IMG/VR virus record: IMGVR_UViG_3300032323_003007
Span: 1-36,979 of that record
Reading direction: 5' to 3' (one strand)
DNA from: a virus
DNA length: 36,979 bases
This document shows, one piece after another, positions 10,306-36,278 of this stretch (its first letter is position 1; each line of letters starts with the position of its first letter). The position numbers and the translations under genes were made by a program. The notes beneath the pieces are model-generated. The model searched no databases. It saw only the letters and a list, made by a program, of their open reading frames with translations, and was not told where the DNA came from.

Positions 10306-11376
10306 TTAAATTATACCACTTTTAAGATTCTGAGCATCGTGATAAAAGGCAAGATTGTCATGCAGTCTTTGATCTTCGCACAAAGAAACAGCTATCTCCC
10401 CATGCTTTGAAGCTGCTTCAAAATCCCCTAGGTTATAGTTTGCAAGTGCTAGCAGATCATGAGGTTTCCATCCCCATGAGTCTGATTCGCAAAAATATCC
10501 TAAATACTTTTCTTTTATATTTAAAGCAAGCTCTGAATATTCTTTTACTTTGTGCCAATCTTCTTGCTCATAAAAATATTGAGCTAGATCTACAATGGGC
10601 TCTCTTCTTTCTGGGCATTCTGCAATTGCTGTTCTTAGCCAGTACTCTTTATTTTCTGGTTCACATTTAGCAATGTATCTCATAGACTCACATCTTTCTG
10701 GCTTCCAAAAGGCGGACTCTAAAGACAGGTGTCTTTTAAATTCTGCTGCAGACTCTGCATATCTAGCATAATAAAATAGTTCACGAGCATAGTAATGTGC
10801 ACATCTATCGCTTAAAGGATCTTCTTTTGCTGCCATTTCTAAAAGAGCAAGATATTGTCCTCTAGATTTGTTATTGTCTGGCAGATGAGATATTTTTACG
10901 TCAATCTTTTTTCTTACCTCTTCTATTCCATAAAATGAAACAGATTCGTGAATTGGAAATTTCCACCTATGACCGTGTCTTGAATGCATTCTTAATGCAT
11001 CAAATTCTGTTCCTGATTGTCCCGCTTCATCTATATGGGTAGCAAGTGTATGTATTGGTCTTGTTACATTAGAACCTTCTAAAGACTCTAACTCTTTTCT
11101 CCAGCCTTCCGAAAGTATTTCATCCATATCCATAGATATGCAGTAATCAATGTCGGAAGGAAGTAAGGCAAGAGCTGCATTGCGAGCATCATCAAATCGC
11201 CATGGATTTATAGAAATGATATGTACATTTATTCCAAGTGATTTGGCTATCTCTACTGTTTTATCTGTAGAACCAGTATCTGCAATTAATAAATAGTCAG
11301 CATCTTTTGCAGATTCATACCAACGCTTAACAAATTGCTCTTCATTCAAAGCAATTGTATATACTGCTATTTTCAT
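10306..11376 (-). CDS. GT2-family glycosyltransferase with TPR-like C-terminus
   Basis: A 356-residue protein with a GT-A fold glycosyltransferase domain at residues 1-~110: [10 protein letters not shown], the nucleotide-sugar motif [10 protein letters not shown] (D33-T40), FDDARN (61-66) and a DxD-type metal site SMDMDE (D83, D85). Residues ~170-350 are helical with TPR-like pairs ([20 protein letters not shown]-like spacing). This architecture occurs in enzymes that glycosylate proteins or cell-surface glycans. The gene sits directly between two collagen-like fibre genes (stop two bases before one start; 17-base gap on the other side), so fibre glycosylation is a reasonable hypothesis. Sugar donor and acceptor are unknown. 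CGGAG precedes the ATG. Confidence 0.8.
10310..10318 (-). promoter_or_regulatory. Extended -10 box for the 681-residue collagen-like fibre gene
   Basis: The minus strand reads TGGTATAAT, a consensus extended -10, overlapping the last codons of the glycosyltransferase gene. It ends six bases before the fibre ATG, which has no Shine-Dalgarno. Initiation would place +1 at the start codon. No -35 match. Confidence 0.5.
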
Positions 11377-11393: not shown

Positions 11394-13775
11394 TTAGCCA
11401 ATTATGTTAATTACACCTGTCATAGGAGAATGGAATTGGCAAATATAGTATAGCGTAGCTGGTGCGGCTAAGTCAACAGTAAAACGAATTCCGCCAACAT
11501 CGTCTCCGTTATTTACAACTCCAGTATTATATTGATCTCCCGTTCCAGTTGTCTGTGCAGTTTTAATCCAAAACGGGTGCCCAGAGGCATTTACTGTAAA
11601 GAAGTATGTTTGTCCTCTTACTAATGTTAATGCTCGATTTGAAATTCCATCAATTGAATAAGAACCTGATCCGCTATTTGTAACTTGAAAGTTTTGTATG
11701 ATAGTTAATCCTGCTGGACCCGTTGGTCCTGTTGGACCACCTGCAGGTCCGTCTGCACCAGTTGGTCCTGTTGGGCCTGTTAAACCAGCACCTGTGGCTC
11801 CTGTGGCACCAGTTGCGCCTGTTGGTCCTACTGATCCTGTTGGTCCTGTTGGACCCTGAATACTTGATCCATTGGCACCTGTGGCTCCTGTGGCACCTGC
11901 GGCACCTGTTGGCCCTGCTGGGCCTGTGGCTCCTGTAGCGCCTACTGCTCCTGTTGGGCCTTGAATGCTTCCCACATTTGTCCAAGCAGCTCCTGCCCAA
12001 ACATAAAGCTCTCCAGCAACTAAATAAGCGTCTCCTGTTTGACCTGATGGCTGTGCGGCTTGCAATTGTGCAAGAGTAGAGTAAGAACCAAGGATTGAAA
12101 CTCCAGTTCCATCTGATCCAGCTACTCCTGTGGCACCTGTTGCGCCTGTGGCACCAGTTGCGCCTGTTGGTCCAGCAACTGTGCTATTAGCGCCTGTAGC
12201 GCCTGTAGCACCTGTTGGACCTGTGTTTCCTTGAGCTAAAGTAAAGTTCAAAACAACATCTGTTGTTGTTCCTGAGTTTGTTACAGAAGGAATTCCAGTT
12301 GCACCAGTTGCAGTTGTTGTACCTAAAGTAATTGTAGTTGGTCCAGCTGGTCCAGTTGCCCCTGTAGGTCCTTGCCTTAAAGTAAAATCAAACACTGCTG
12401 CAGATGATGTTCCTGAATTTACAACAAGGGAATTTCCTGTTGGGCCCGTAGAGGTAGTCGTTCCGATTGCAACTGTTGGAGTAGATCCAGTCGGTCCTGT
12501 TACTCCCGTTGGTCCTTGACGTAATACAAAATCAAAAACTCCAGCAGATCCTGTTCCAGAATTTGTTACAGAAACTGTTCCAGTAGGACCAGTTGAAGAT
12601 ACTGTTCCTACCGCAATTGTTGCTGGTCCAGTTGCTCCTGTAGGTCCTTGAAATTGTCCCGCATCAATCCAAGATGATCCGTCCCAAACATAAAGATGTA
12701 AATCTGTTAAAACTATCCATGAGTCTCCTGAAACATTTCCAGAAGAAGGCAATGCAGCAAAATTTGCTTGCGTTCCCTTAATGTTTATAGATCTTCCAGC
12801 TGCGCCTGTAGCACCTACTGCCCCTGTTACTCCTCTAAGACCTGTTGCGCCTGTTGCGCCTGTTGGGCCTATAAATCTTCCTCCGTTTTGCCATACTAGA
12901 CCGTTATATAAATATACTTCTGATGTTGATGATAATATGTATGCTGTTCCTAGCGGTGCGTTAGCAGGCAATGCGTTTATGTCGGCTACTACTCCCTCAA
13001 GCCTTAAACCTGTTCCATTTGCACCAGTTGGTCCTGTTTGGCCTGTTGGCCCTGTTGGTCCTTGTGGACCCGCTGGTCCAGTTGCTCCATTAGTTCCTAT
13101 AGTTCCGTTAGTTCCTGGATTTCCAGCTACTGCAAAAACCCAATTAACATATGTACCAGTTCCACTAAACGAATCTACGGCTACGGTAATGCTGACATTT
13201 TTAACAACTTGTGTAATAATGCCTTCTACATATGTAGTTAAAGCAAGTGGATTAATTACACGAACTCTTTGTCCTGCTGTGTATGCTCCGCTATTATTTA
13301 CAAAAAATACTTTTGCTCCAGCTGAAACTTGGTGTGATGTTATAGAAGTAATATCTGAATATCCTGCTCCAGAGGCACCAGTAGTTCCGCCTCCACTGCC
13401 GCCACCTGAAAGTGTTCCTGAAAGATCAACCCCAGATATTGTTAATGAGTAACAGTTTGGCGTTGTAGTAACTGCTGCAATAGATTCTCCAGCATTTAAA
13501 ATTAATGAGTGCTCAAGCTTTAATGTTGTGTTGTTTTCAACACTCACATTGCCATAAAGAGTGTATGGGTCTAAACTCGACCTGTTAATATTGTAAAGGT
13601 TTATAAGCTGATCGCCATTTTCTCCCAATAAGAAAATGCTAAAAGGAAGAGTTGATCCACTAAAGTTTGTTACGGTAAACTCTTTGATAATTATAGTTGA
13701 TACAGCTGTGTATATTTTTGCTGGAGATGCTGGAATTAAAGAAGGTCCTGCAAATCTAATTGGAGCATATGACAT
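11394..13775 (-). CDS. Collagen-like tail fibre with C-terminal cupredoxin-like domain
   Basis: Encodes 793 residues. Residues ~1-125 form a beta domain ([11 protein letters not shown] ... [13 protein letters not shown] ... LTISGVDL) that matches the small separate protein at 17910-18230. A glycine linker and a beta module follow, then several Gly-X-Y stretches alternating with ~50-residue inserts that close on W hairpins ([36 protein letters not shown]). The last ~105 residues look like a cupredoxin: a His in SGHPFWIK (H733) and [16 protein letters not shown], giving Cys779, His782 and Met785. That is a complete type-1 copper ligand set with C-x2-H-x2-M spacing as in amicyanin. Copper binding is inferred, not shown. 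AAGGGGG precedes the ATG. Confidence 0.8.
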
Positions 13776-20615: not shown

Positions 20616-23600
20616 TTAGGCCTGCGCTTCCGTCCACGCAAGAACTGCTGAAATGTTAGCAGGTGCGGAACCGAGGTTGGTAGCAACGATTGTAAGAATG
20701 TCTGGAGCATTTGGGAAACCTGGTGTGGCAACGCTTCCATCTCCATTTAGAATAGAGTTTCCTAGGTCTCTTGCTTTTGTAAGGTCAATACGTGTTACGG
20801 AGTAGTTTGTACCTCCGCCGTTATCTGTATAGAAAGCAAACACACGATCTCCTCCAGAAACTGTATTTGTAGGAGAAAGAACTGGCGATCCAGTTGTTCC
20901 TGTTCCATCATGGTAAATAATTTGTGCCAAAGAACCAGATCCCACTCTTGATTCTGACCAAGCATTTGGAATATTTACACCGTTTAGAGATTGTGCATTT
21001 AGAATTCCTTCTACAAGGAACTGACCCTGTGCCAAAATATTTACGCTGTAAAGTTTTAACTGCATGTTATTTGATAATTCACGAAGACCGAAGTTACGTC
21101 CAGTACCGTTATCCGCAGATGGCGCAACTCTAAGTGAAATCAATGGACGTGCCTGTTGCGTTGCCCCGAATACCTGTGTTACAGCTCCGTTTGGATTAAC
21201 TGAAGACGAGGATTCATCTGGTTGAGCAAGAGCAAATGATATCGTATTTGAAGTAACGTTATTTATTAAATGTGTTCCATTAAAGAAGCTTGAGGTTACA
21301 GCCGATGGGCTAGTAGAAGGCTGAACAAATTGAAACGGAATATTGCTGGAAGTTCTATTAAATAAGAAGGTTGTAGATGTTACTCCAGTAATAGTCCATG
21401 TACCATTAAACACATTGTCCACTCCAGTCACAACTACTGTTTGTCCCACTCTATGTCTGTGAGCAACGGATGTTGTAAGGCTTGCAACGTTATTTGTTAG
21501 CTGCTTGTATGTAATTATAGATGTATCATTTACTCCTGAAACAACTGCGTTAAATCCTGCAAGCAATGAGTGAGGTGCTGAAGTTGTTAATGTTGCAACT
21601 CCTGATGTTCTTACTCTAGAAACAATTGTTGCTGAAACAGATCCAGATCCACCGACCTGTAAATATCTCTGCATACCAGCTGTAAAGATAAAGGAAGCAT
21701 CATCATCAAAGCCTCCGTCCATAATTACTGAAGATCCCCAGTGGCTCATAACTGGAGCACATTCTTGAGAAATAACCTGAACTGAAACCTGTGCAGATCC
21801 TGATCCTCCAGGAATAGTTGCATCTGGTCTAAAGGTTGCTGCTACATAAGTTCCATTAAGGCTATATGCTGATCCTGCATAATATGTTACATAAGGTTGT
21901 CTACGAATAAGATTCATAGCGTATCCCTTTGCAGTATCATTATATGCACCAATTGATGTGAATCGTGCAATTTCTACATAATTTTCATCTTGAATTCTAA
22001 GGAATCCACTTGATGGCCAGTAGTCCACGTTATCAACATACATCACTGTATCTTGTGGAAGAAGATTTGATCCTCTTACTGCAGTTCCTCCAGCAACTAG
22101 CTTTGAAAACTTTGTTGGTTCGTTAATTGCTTCATATCTAGCAGGAAGGTTACCCGAACGCTGATATGCTGCTAAGTTATTATTGTTATTCGAAATTTCA
22201 TGGCACCAGGTAATCTTACCAGCCTGGCCTCTAAATCCATATCTAATTGTTCCTGCTCCATACCAAGAGTAGTCGATGTATGTCATCTGCATCTTGGATG
22301 GATCAAATACGTGTGCTGATGGTCCACTTCCGTCAAACTTATCTAAATTCCATTCTGATTGAGGAACCTTAACAATTTGAGTCTTGCGAACCTTTACACT
22401 TGGCTGAGAAGCTCCACGGTATGCTGGAGCAATAGTCAAGGATGTGTCTGATGCAATCTGAAGAACTCTATAAGACTGTCCACGGATTACAATTTTATCT
22501 CCTGAAACTAACTGCTTTCTAAAAATTGTTCCATTTCCAGTTACTGTTGAATTAAATCTAGTTACGGAAACATTTCCTCTAAGGACCTGTGTAGACCATT
22601 GACGGCAAGCGAATAAACCTTGTCCATCATACTCAAAGAAAAATCCATCTTGCTCTGAATATAAACCAGCTCTTGTTGATGCACCCTTCCAAATGTATGG
22701 GGTAGCAAAAACATTTACTCCGCCTGGTATTTGATCAATTGGTGACAAAACTTCTGTAAATACTACATTATACTTAAATGTTGTAGCATCAACAACGGAT
22801 GTTACAAGGTGAAGTCCGTTAAATGGATTGTATGGTCCAGATGTTTCTGTTCCTTCAATCTTAACGTATGCACCTGGCTGCAAGTTGTGAGAGTTAAGTG
22901 TAGTTACAGTAATGTCCTGAGATCCTGGAACTAATCCAGTAGATGCTAAATATTCTACCTGGAATGTAGGTGTAAATTTTGTTCCTGTTGAAAATTGAAT
23001 TGATTTTCCAGACTGGTATCTGAAATATCTACGTGTTTGACGCATTGTTTGTGTACCGCATACGTTATTTCCTGTTGACATAATAACTCCACCATCATGT
23101 GGTCTGTGGTTCACATAACCTTCAGGCTTTGCATAGAAGCCTTGATCAAGCGTATTGATTGGATTATTGATTTGACTATTCGCCATAAATGACATTGAGT
23201 TTGGTGTATCTACAGTGTCAATAAAAAAGCTTCCGAAGAAATTGCTTCCTTCTTTTTGTGTAACGAGAACTGGTGTTCCTGGAAGAAGTCCGTGTGGCTT
23301 TGGCGAAACAATTGTAATTCTTGATGGCGTAGCCTGATCTGATACTGCAGAAAATGATCCAAGCTGTCCAACAATTCCACCCATGATGTGTGCGTTGTCA
23401 AAAATTCCTCCGCCGTAAATTGATGTTAGTGTTCCATCTTGGATAGGACCGCTAACAATTCCTTTTGCTGTGTATGTAAATGTTGTTGATGATGTTGGGA
23501 AACATAAAAATGTTCCATCTGCATTATCTGAAGTTGTTTCCTGAACAGATATAACGTCTCCTGAGCTTAATCCATGAGGAGAGTTACATGTTACAGTTAC

Positions 23601-24122
23601 TGTAGATAATGGAGAAACTCCATTTCCTTCAATTAGCTGTACATCAATTGCGTTTCCTCCAGTAGATCTGCCGAAGAATCCTGGGTAATTCTGAATCATT
23701 GTAAGTGTTTCCCACTTAGAGTTCTGAATACCGTATTCAAAGTCAGTATCGATAAGAGATACAGGATTTGCTGTACGAAGCTTTCCTACTGCATCCACCA
23801 AATAATCGGCTGGCTCAAATACTTCATTTTCTGTGTCATAAACAATTTGCCAATCATCTGTAGGCAACATTGTAGAGGTGTTGTATTTTAATACTAATAT
23901 TGTTTTGCCGTGTGCTGCATCGTGATATTCATCTGAAACTGGAGTGGAGAAAGAATGGCTATATAGACCCAGTGCAGGGTCAGCAAAATTGTAAACAATC
24001 TTATTAGATGTTGTGTTTGTAATTAACAGTAGCTTTTCTCTACGAATTAGCTTAGGAATAGTTAATGTTCCTGTGCCTGGTACAAAATCAATATCTGTTA
24101 AACTTAAAATTTTTCTTGCCAT
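20616..24122 (-). CDS. Very large virion structural/tail fibre protein with H-G-L beta repeats
   Basis: Encodes 1168 residues, the largest gene here. Residues ~100-160 carry the LVDAVGKLRTANPVSLIDTD and FEYGIQNSKWETL blocks that are typical of large virion proteins of T4-like aquatic phages. A beta module recurs at least five times: 'T.t...HgL..G..v.v.G......G...v..v....F.y' (e.g. CNSPHGLSSGDVISVQ, VSPKPHGLLPGTPVLVT, LNSHNLQPGAYVKIEG, TSAPHSLLAGFNAVVSG, SVAHRHRVGQTVVVTG). Between modules are long beta stretches and a C-terminal domain (~960-1168). Likely a long baseplate or fibre component. AGGAG upstream of ATG 24122. No enzymatic motif seen. Confidence 0.72.
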   Translation of the reverse strand: MARKILSLTDIDFVPGTGTLTIPKLIRREKLLLITNTTSNKIVYNFADPALGLYSHSFSTPVSDEYHDAAHGKTILVLKYNTSTMLPTDDWQIVYDTENEVFEPADYLVDAVGKLRTANPVSLIDTDFEYGIQNSKWETLTMIQNYPGFFGRSTGGNAIDVQLIEGNGVSPLSTVTVTCNSPHGLSSGDVISVQETTSDNADGTFLCFPTSSTTFTYTAKGIVSGPIQDGTLTSIYGGGIFDNAHIMGGIVGQLGSFSAVSDQATPSRITIVSPKPHGLLPGTPVLVTQKEGSNFFGSFFIDTVDTPNSMSFMANSQINNPINTLDQGFYAKPEGYVNHRPHDGGVIMSTGNNVCGTQTMRQTRRYFRYQSGKSIQFSTGTKFTPTFQVEYLASTGLVPGSQDITVTTLNSHNLQPGAYVKIEGTETSGPYNPFNGLHLVTSVVDATTFKYNVVFTEVLSPIDQIPGGVNVFATPYIWKGASTRAGLYSEQDGFFFEYDGQGLFACRQWSTQVLRGNVSVTRFNSTVTGNGTIFRKQLVSGDKIVIRGQSYRVLQIASDTSLTIAPAYRGASQPSVKVRKTQIVKVPQSEWNLDKFDGSGPSAHVFDPSKMQMTYIDYSWYGAGTIRYGFRGQAGKITWCHEISNNNNNLAAYQRSGNLPARYEAINEPTKFSKLVAGGTAVRGSNLLPQDTVMYVDNVDYWPSSGFLRIQDENYVEIARFTSIGAYNDTAKGYAMNLIRRQPYVTYYAGSAYSLNGTYVAATFRPDATIPGGSGSAQVSVQVISQECAPVMSHWGSSVIMDGGFDDDASFIFTAGMQRYLQVGGSGSVSATIVSRVRTSGVATLTTSAPHSLLAGFNAVVSGVNDTSIITYKQLTNNVASLTTSVAHRHRVGQTVVVTGVDNVFNGTWTITGVTSTTFLFNRTSSNIPFQFVQPSTSPSAVTSSFFNGTHLINNVTSNTISFALAQPDESSSSVNPNGAVTQVFGATQQARPLISLRVAPSADNGTGRNFGLRELSNNMQLKLYSVNILAQGQFLVEGILNAQSLNGVNIPNAWSESRVGSGSLAQIIYHDGTGTTGSPVLSPTNTVSGGDRVFAFYTDNGGGTNYSVTRIDLTKARDLGNSILNGDGSVATPGFPNAPDILTIVATNLGSAPANISAVLAWTEAQA

Positions 24123-34343: not shown

Positions 34344-36278
34344 TTAACTAGAAATGTCTACTAGCTCACAGTTTCCATCTGAGCTGCATGCTAGTGTAGC
34401 ATTTGTAGAAGTTCCGTCTTCTGTTTCATAAAAAGATAAATCTTCCCAACGAATATTTTTAGGCATTTTTTCAACAAGTGCATCGTATTCTGCTTTGTCT
34501 ACTTCCTGGTAAGGTGCTTGCTTGTATGAGTGATCGGAATGAGGCAGGAATGAAATTCCAGACACTTCATCAAAATGCTTATAAACCCATGCTCCAACTT
34601 CCATCCACTCTTCTTCTTTTACGGAAACAGTAATAGATGGTTTGTGCTCACACCATGCACGTTGATAAGCTAACCAAATGTTTAAGTGCTCAATAGCAGT
34701 AAGATCATTTCTAATAATTGCGCCTTCTGGTGCTTTTACTGGAAATGAAAATACGTATGTATCGTTTGGCTTCATGACATCATCTTCTACTGGAATCCCA
34801 ACTTCCTTAAGAAAAACAGAAATAGGGTCTCCCTTTGAGCCACGAACTGTACGAATATAATATGGGGAATGCCATGCATGCATTCCTGAAGACACCCCGA
34901 CCAATTGAGATACTGTTCCTGATGGCTTTACACATGTAATAGCGGCAGATTCGGGAATCCCAATTTTCCCAGCCTCTTCTTTATTAATTTCACGAGCATA
35001 CTCACGAAGTCGAGATAATGCATCTTCTAATTTATCAAGACCCTGTTTTCCAGAAAAGAACTTATGTCCAAATTGTCCTGTTAATGAAACTCCAAGCAGT
35101 CTTTCTTCTTCGGTGTTATCTTTCCAAATTTTGCGAAGGTACTTAAAATCTGTTAGTGTTGATTGCCAAGTCCCAAGAATTGTTGCAAGGCGTACCTTAT
35201 TTGCAACATCTTCATTTGTATCCTTTTCACGTAGTACGACTTCTGAAAGATTACAAAACTGGTAAGGACGTAGGATAATCTCTGAACACGGGTTAGTTCC
35301 ATAGTGTATATCTGGATCTCTTCTGCCAAACTTGGCTGCTTGGGCTTGAGCTGCGGCCACATTGTATATACCTCGTTCTCCTGATTTTGAATCATATAGA
35401 GATTTCCATTCTGCAATAAACTGCTCCATTTCTGGTTTGCGTGAATACGCAACAGAGTTGTTAGACAAAGCACGTTGTGGGCTTGCTTCCCACCAATTAC
35501 CTGACTTTGCCTGTGCCATTTCAATATCATTAATATTGGAAAGAGAAATCATTGCTGATCGACGAACTCCGCCTACAACAACTACTTCACCAATCTTACA
35601 CATTATGTCGTGGCATTCAATTGGCTTTAAATTTCTTCCTGTAGCATTCTTAAACTTTGCAATTGTAAAATCAAACAAATTAATAAGTGGCTGTGGACCT
35701 GATGACCTTCCGCCCATTGTCTTAAGTCTTGCTCCTGCTGGTCTTACCTTAGAAACATCAATTGCTGGAATCTGTCCAGACCAAAGTAGCGCTAGCAACT
35801 CACGGTATGCCTTGGCCCAGCCTTGCTTTGAGTCTTCTACTGTAATTACTGTAGTTGACTTTTCTAAAGATTCTGGGACGGCAGGAAGTTTATTGATGTA
35901 CTTATACTCAACAGAAAATCCTACACCCGTACCGCACATAAGTATGTACATAGTCTCATCAAATGAACGTGGGGAATCAACTGGTAAGAAAGCACAGTTG
36001 TATCCAGCTACATTATCTCTTTCCAATGCTGCACCTGAAGTCATAACAGAACGCATTGATGGCATAACATTTCGTTCAAAGACAAACTCTTTTAATTCCG
36101 CAACAAGCTTCTCATTTGGAATATAATTATGGTTTTTTTCTAGATGGCCAAGCATGAAGTTAAAATATCTATCTACTGTTTCACCCCAAGTCTCACGGCG
36201 ATTATCTTCTGATATCCATCTTGCATATCTTGATAATGCAATGAAATTTTCGTATGGGTTTGCAATAGTTTTAGACAT
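34344..36278 (-). CDS. nrdJ: Adenosylcobalamin-dependent ribonucleoside-triphosphate reductase (class II)
   Basis: Makes deoxyribonucleotides from ribonucleoside triphosphates using vitamin B12 radical chemistry, without oxygen or a second subunit. Key residues match the Lactobacillus RTPR type: Cys95 (YNCAF) and Cys342 (QFCNLSE) form the likely redox pair; NPCSEI (329-334) holds radical Cys331 and Glu333, with the same 11-residue spacing from radical to redox Cys; PSGTVSQLVGVSSGMH is the phosphate-binding loop; C631/C637 at the C-terminus are the shuttle cysteines. At 644 residues it is somewhat shorter than cellular enzymes (~740). It supplies phage DNA synthesis. Weak AAAGG before ATG 36278. 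It stands alone, outside the fibre operon. Confidence 0.92.
   Translation of the reverse strand: MSKTIANPYENFIALSRYARWISEDNRRETWGETVDRYFNFMLGHLEKNHNYIPNEKLVAELKEFVFERNVMPSMRSVMTSGAALERDNVAGYNCAFLPVDSPRSFDETMYILMCGTGVGFSVEYKYINKLPAVPESLEKSTTVITVEDSKQGWAKAYRELLALLWSGQIPAIDVSKVRPAGARLKTMGGRSSGPQPLINLFDFTIAKFKNATGRNLKPIECHDIMCKIGEVVVVGGVRRSAMISLSNINDIEMAQAKSGNWWEASPQRALSNNSVAYSRKPEMEQFIAEWKSLYDSKSGERGIYNVAAAQAQAAKFGRRDPDIHYGTNPCSEIILRPYQFCNLSEVVLREKDTNEDVANKVRLATILGTWQSTLTDFKYLRKIWKDNTEEERLLGVSLTGQFGHKFFSGKQGLDKLEDALSRLREYAREINKEEAGKIGIPESAAITCVKPSGTVSQLVGVSSGMHAWHSPYYIRTVRGSKGDPISVFLKEVGIPVEDDVMKPNDTYVFSFPVKAPEGAIIRNDLTAIEHLNIWLAYQRAWCEHKPSITVSVKEEEWMEVGAWVYKHFDEVSGISFLPHSDHSYKQAPYQEVDKAEYDALVEKMPKNIRWEDLSFYETEDGTSTNATLACSSDGNCELVDISS

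Follow-up and report, generated by a model that had tools for sequence, protein, structure and literature searches.

Why would a collagen-like phage tail fibre end in what appears to be a complete set of type-1 copper ligands, and does the end of this fibre bind copper? We have addressed these questions for a fibre gene in the window, i.e. the stretch of DNA that was analysed, which comprises an entire virus record of 36,979 bases.

The fibre gene and its parts

The gene (positions 11394-13775, minus strand) is an open reading frame encoding a protein of 793 amino acids, with the G-x-y repeats of a collagen-like phage tail fibre, a match to Pfam Collagen (E 8e-11) and matches to PHROG tail fibre families (phrog_3904, E 3e-55). 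Residues 1-216 (13127-13775, minus strand), presumed to be the virion-proximal end, are 85-92% identical across 25 IMG/VR fibres. They are followed at residues 218-689 (11709-13124, minus strand) by collagen-like G-x-y stretches, recognised by Pfam Collagen and in the sequence, with small interspersed domains. The final G-x-y stretch precedes the last ~104 residues, i.e. the C-terminal tip domain (residues ~690-793; 11397-11708, minus strand), which AlphaFold2, Foldseek, VIA-align and more than 450 viral relatives identify as a predicted cupredoxin.

The copper-ligand motif

The initial annotation had claimed a complete type-1 copper ligand set for this tip, and translation of the fibre places all four residues where they had been reported, in canonical order and in register with plastocyanin, azurin and NirK. 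Specifically, these are His733 as candidate N-terminal ligand (codon 11577-11579), Cys779 as candidate thiolate ligand (11439-11441), His782 as candidate second His ligand (11430-11432) and Met785 as candidate axial ligand (11421-11423), all on the minus strand. Cys, the second His and Met lie on the last loop, and its sequence, C779-Q-F-H782-S-P-M785, is of the amicyanin CxxHxxM type; among natural ligand loops no type is shorter.

The fibre has His at positions 89, 148, 360, 733 and 782, the last four being the only His within its last 680 residues, where C779 and M785 are the sole Cys and Met. CxxHxxM arose in 6 out of 200,000 shuffles of the fibre protein; of the 128 stop-to-stop frames of at least 60 amino acids in the window, that of the fibre is the only one in which it occurs. 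The His-x-His iron motif of phage tail fibres is absent from the 793-residue protein, and reading the tip as an iron site of that kind was rejected on this ground. A disulphide role for Cys779 is not favoured: since it is the single Cys in the domain only an interchain bond would be possible, and relatives retain the Cys jointly with both His.

Predicted fold and structural matches

Structure prediction of the tip, suggested in the initial annotation as a check on the proposed cupredoxin fold, supports that proposal, in that both Foldseek and VIA-align give cupredoxins, and not another fold, as best PDB matches. The AlphaFold2 model, built with 53 aligned sequences, is an all-beta sandwich (pLDDT 97, pTM 0.89). 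Foldseek against PDB placed rusticyanin, AcoP and plastocyanin at the top, with copper proteins throughout the list, including multicopper oxidases, CuA and amicyanin. With VIA-align the model matched the N-terminal domain of Hyphomicrobium NirK (Z 10.8, rmsd 1.9, 88 aligned), rusticyanin (Z 10.6, rmsd 2.7, 95 aligned) and small laccases (Z 9.9). A separate model of the C-terminal domain of cyanophage gp9 (pLDDT 86) had amicyanins as best Foldseek matches (E 1.9e-3), the leading matches being copper proteins and none falling under 1e-3, and was matched by VIA-align to the NirK N-terminal domain (Z 9.2) and rusticyanin (Z 8.7). The predicted Greek-key beta sandwich thus matches solved members of the cupredoxin superfamily, and on the basis of these models the tip domain almost certainly has the cupredoxin fold. 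From the fold match and the alignment register we infer that the four ligands converge to bonding distance.

Three BFVD entries (A0A481Z6J5, A0A481Z7Q7 and A0A481YVH3), which are 'beta-sandwich proteins' of Pithovirus and Marseillevirus, also match the tip model, with TM ~0.8 by query length.

Sequence homology to known cupredoxins

When the tip sequence was used alone, Pfam PF00127 (Copper-bind) scored 12.6 bits, under its cut-off of 21.2 (E 0.19), the best E value in a phmmer search of PDB was 0.43, and the NCBIfam amicyanin model TIGR02657 gave no match at E ≤ 0.01. Among the relatives, 16 of the 53 members of alignment A1 matched PF00127 weakly (best E 9.9e-4) and 3/34 matched TIGR02657 (best 1.4e-4); individual relatives reached 3.4e-5 for rusticyanin, 1.3e-4 for plastocyanin and 1.4e-4 for amicyanin in NCBIfam. 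Scanning bacterial genomes in which the domain occurs for PF00127 matches gave no further information on the ligands. Moreover, a profile of 34 diverse domain members (A2) retrieved mainly cupredoxins from PDB, e.g. NirK (E 1.6e-3), plastocyanin (0.033) and the azurin loop variant CAAHAAM (0.041). In these alignments Cys, His and Met are in register with the copper ligands of NirK, plastocyanin and the azurin loop variants, and for plastocyanin the first His is in register too.

Amicyanin (TIGR02657) shares with the tip the cupredoxin fold, the His...Cys-x2-His-x2-Met pattern and the loop length, but it carries electrons in the periplasm for methylamine dehydrogenase and the tip is part of a phage fibre. 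In amicyanin-type proteins the first His ligand is usually followed by Asn, whereas the window domain has HPF at this point. Rusticyanin, AcoP and the N-terminal domain of three-domain NirK, the best structural matches, are ~15-20% identical to the tip; rusticyanin and AcoP are longer than the tip domain, and all three belong to electron transfer contexts. We also noted that Pfam PF25489, a plant At5g54830-like domain, is weakly matched by 14 of the 53 A1 domains (best E 5e-4), and judging from these scores it may be related to the tip-domain family.

Conservation and loss of the ligands

Relatives of the domain were found in 452 confirmed stretches in IMG/VR, in some 200 phage records (E ≤ 1e-3; cyanophages almost throughout) and in 31 cellular loci. 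Across 182 distinct domains with a mean identity of 47% and a minimum of 15%, the ligand columns hold conservation ranks 1 to 4: Cys779 and His782 are each kept in 182/182, and His733 and Met785 in 181/182. A secreted Acidobacterial protein (L084, 5842-6321) has Gln in the axial position, which is a natural variant in stellacyanin. A diverse alignment of 34 members has H44, Y88, C90, H93 and M96 (domain numbering) as its only invariant columns, and the four ligands are invariant in all 77 gp9/cyanophage domains of the set, which leaves out the divergent fibre of S-B43 (too short).

Two of the collections of relatives had been gathered partly via the ligand motifs, and two unselected samples were therefore added. 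Cyanophage gp9 proteins fetched by their N-terminal 300 residues have the four ligands in 78/78 complete proteins, corresponding to 53 distinct C-terminal domains. Fibre-type domains fetched with an alignment (A3) of the segment between the ligands have all four in 49 of 53 distinct domains. All these counts refer to related sequences and not to independent events.

Ligands have also been lost. L261-263 are without His, Cys and His, L301 and L311 without both His, and L281 without Met, and in the fibre of the isolate S-B43 the residues His, Cys and His are replaced by Phe, Ala and Val. The losses are mostly joint, affecting two or three ligands. The remainder of the domain is recognisable in every such member, which argues that folding alone does not explain why the ligands are kept, and judging from these sequences the metal appears to be dispensable in some phages.

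Where the domain occurs

The initial annotation dealt with a single fibre tip, and the family extends beyond it. Of 24 complete fibres that share the N-terminus of the window fibre, 21 end in the cupredoxin with ligands intact. The other three (L227, L234 and L235) have the same N-terminus and collagen part followed by a different tip of ~45 amino acids (GDVKWDSNYIYVC...WKR), and the tip is therefore an exchangeable module. The domain forms the end of the fibre in the loci nearest to the window, whereas in more distant loci it is internal or near the N-terminus; for open reading frames with a complete 3' end it is C-terminal in 32 and internal in 45.

The domain also forms the C-terminus of gp9 in T4-like cyanophages. 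The C-terminal domain of PHROG 677 (cyanophage gp9, 'baseplate wedge tail fiber protein connector') is the same cupredoxin with all ligands (E 3e-20), although the parent protein belongs to a T4-like baseplate and not to a collagen-like fibre. Neither PHROG 677 in PHROGs nor the gp9 records examined carry a cupredoxin annotation, and annotated records name the domain-bearing proteins gp9, tail fibre or hypothetical. A more diverged copy, again with all four ligands, is present in cyanophage gp10-like wedge proteins (L118, L120, L121, L123, L128 and L130), and in most of these loci the wedge gene adjoins gp9. We suggest, as judged from sequence, that the domain is a portable module grafted onto exposed tail parts, i.e. 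fibre tips and interiors, the gp9 C-terminus and the gp10-like wedge.

On the cellular side, secreted bacterial proteins (Flavobacterium, Gillisia, Muricauda and others) have a C-terminal domain that is 45-62% identical with the same ligands but, unlike the phage fibre, they have no collagen-like part. The secreted flavobacterial relatives L086, L098, L101 and L107-L111 combine repeats, CHRD-like or of other kinds, with one C-terminal cupredoxin. As read from their sequences, most of the cellular relatives seem to be secreted or at the cell surface, and several appear to have CHRD-like repeats. In the domain tree cellular and viral members are intermixed and poorly resolved, the domain being too short to show its origin.

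A probable copper site in the phage tail and its possible role

Taken with the predicted fold, the ligand pattern suggests that the tip very likely carries a working type-1 copper site; that it is a cupredoxin whose copper site is functional is probable on the present models, and we consider it likely that the site binds copper in the virion. Copper is far likelier than zinc, given the His2-Cys-Met set in type-1 arrangement and the amicyanin loop length; the same fold could also hold Zn or Cu(I) without blue colour.

In the scheme we propose, His733, Cys779, His782 and the axial Met785 would form a complete mononuclear type-1 site. Free copper is nearly absent from the host cytoplasm, and the domain would therefore be synthesised and assembled empty, to be loaded with copper after lysis. 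Once bound, copper would clamp the C-terminal loop with its ligands to the domain core, and the clamped domain would give the outer tail its final rigid and active form. That such a copper-dependent clamping or maturation step is the main role is a tentative suggestion. A role as a building block is weakly favoured over a single receptor-specific role because the domain is present at fibre tips, in fibre interiors and in two baseplate proteins.

Copper might instead mediate attachment, with the loaded tip being bound by a copper- or cupredoxin-handling protein on the host surface, or with copper bridging tip and receptor. In keeping with this, the domain sits terminally on the fibre, 3 of the 24 sister fibres that share the N-terminus have a different tip in its place, and the close cellular relatives are secreted or surface proteins; an iron-binding analogue, HxH, has been put forward for phage tails (PMC11705849). 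However, the conserved site also occurs in fibre interiors, in the gp10-like wedge and at the C-terminus of gp9, where no receptor contact is required, and the tip is very conserved, whereas receptor-binding tips usually diversify; we therefore regard attachment as a rather unlikely main function.

The type-1 sites of the solved homologues serve mainly in electron transfer, and the ligand set and short loop of the tip are of the electron-transfer kind. It could accordingly be imagined that an electron passes between the tip and either the host surface or the medium, and that the tip thereby changes conformation, senses redox state or triggers infection. Against this, none of the window proteins scanned was recognisable as a redox partner and collagen fibres are not known to offer a route for electrons, and a redox function seems improbable.

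The domain may also be a beta-sandwich adhesion or spacer domain of a kind common to bacterial surface proteins, in which the copper site is inherited but unused, or occupied by zinc. Phage domains do persist after losing two or three ligands (L261-263, L301, L311 and S-B43), and viral and cellular members are mixed in the tree. An unused site would, however, be expected to decay, but conservation is highest at the four ligand columns, with identities down to 15%, and the ligands are invariant in the 78 unselected gp9 proteins; His2-Cys-Met is moreover a copper set and not a typical zinc set. This explanation is thus quite improbable.

Finally, a chance motif in an unrelated fold, with which the weak single-sequence searches of Pfam and PDB would agree, is hardly credible and was rejected on the shuffles, the high-confidence cupredoxin model, the profile matches and the extreme ligand conservation, this last and not the shuffles appearing to be the real evidence.

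Significance

Both fold and ligand set are classical for a cupredoxin. A search of open-access full texts, judged by titles, abstracts and term counts and leaving subscription papers and preprints outside, yielded no example of a cupredoxin or blue-copper domain in a phage tail. The nearest published idea is the iron-binding HxH motif of phage tail fibres with the Trojan (Ferrojan) Horse hypothesis (PMC11705849). In both a metal would be part of the tail fibre, with a proposed bearing on attachment and ocean metal chemistry, but metal, motif and architecture differ: iron is held by His pairs of the fibre trimer in the one case, and copper by a predicted site within a single folded domain in the other.

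Viral contigs with the domain number in the hundreds, and all complete cyanophage gp9 proteins sampled have it; the putative copper ligands are its most conserved residues, and many virions may carry copper. That many tailed phages of aquatic origin, among them the T4-like cyanophages sampled (gp9), carry virion copper and need it for infection is possible but somewhat doubtful; such a need would act via attachment, a redox trigger or copper-dependent maturation. If true, copper in natural waters would have virions among its ligands and infection would hinge on how much copper is available, which would bring copper into the debate on phage-tail metals and tie infection to aquatic copper chemistry. 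The copper content and copper need of cultured marine cyanophage virions is thus a concrete, testable question. The findings also provide a function-bearing annotation for the C-terminus of a known baseplate protein, gp9.

Other features of the window

Two collagen-like fibre genes, both of which are rich in G-A-T/G-P-T, flank a family-2 glycosyltransferase gene (10306-11376, minus strand; phrog_13126, E 4e-110), and the enzyme might glycosylate the repeat threonines of the fibres. Among the window positions examined (1328-2911, 34344-36278 and 20616-24122), the portal is 57% and the ribonucleotide reductase 66% similar to proteins of Streptomyces phages, whereas a structural protein of 1168 amino acids is cyanophage-like (33%), and on these similarities the virus appears to be a mosaic.
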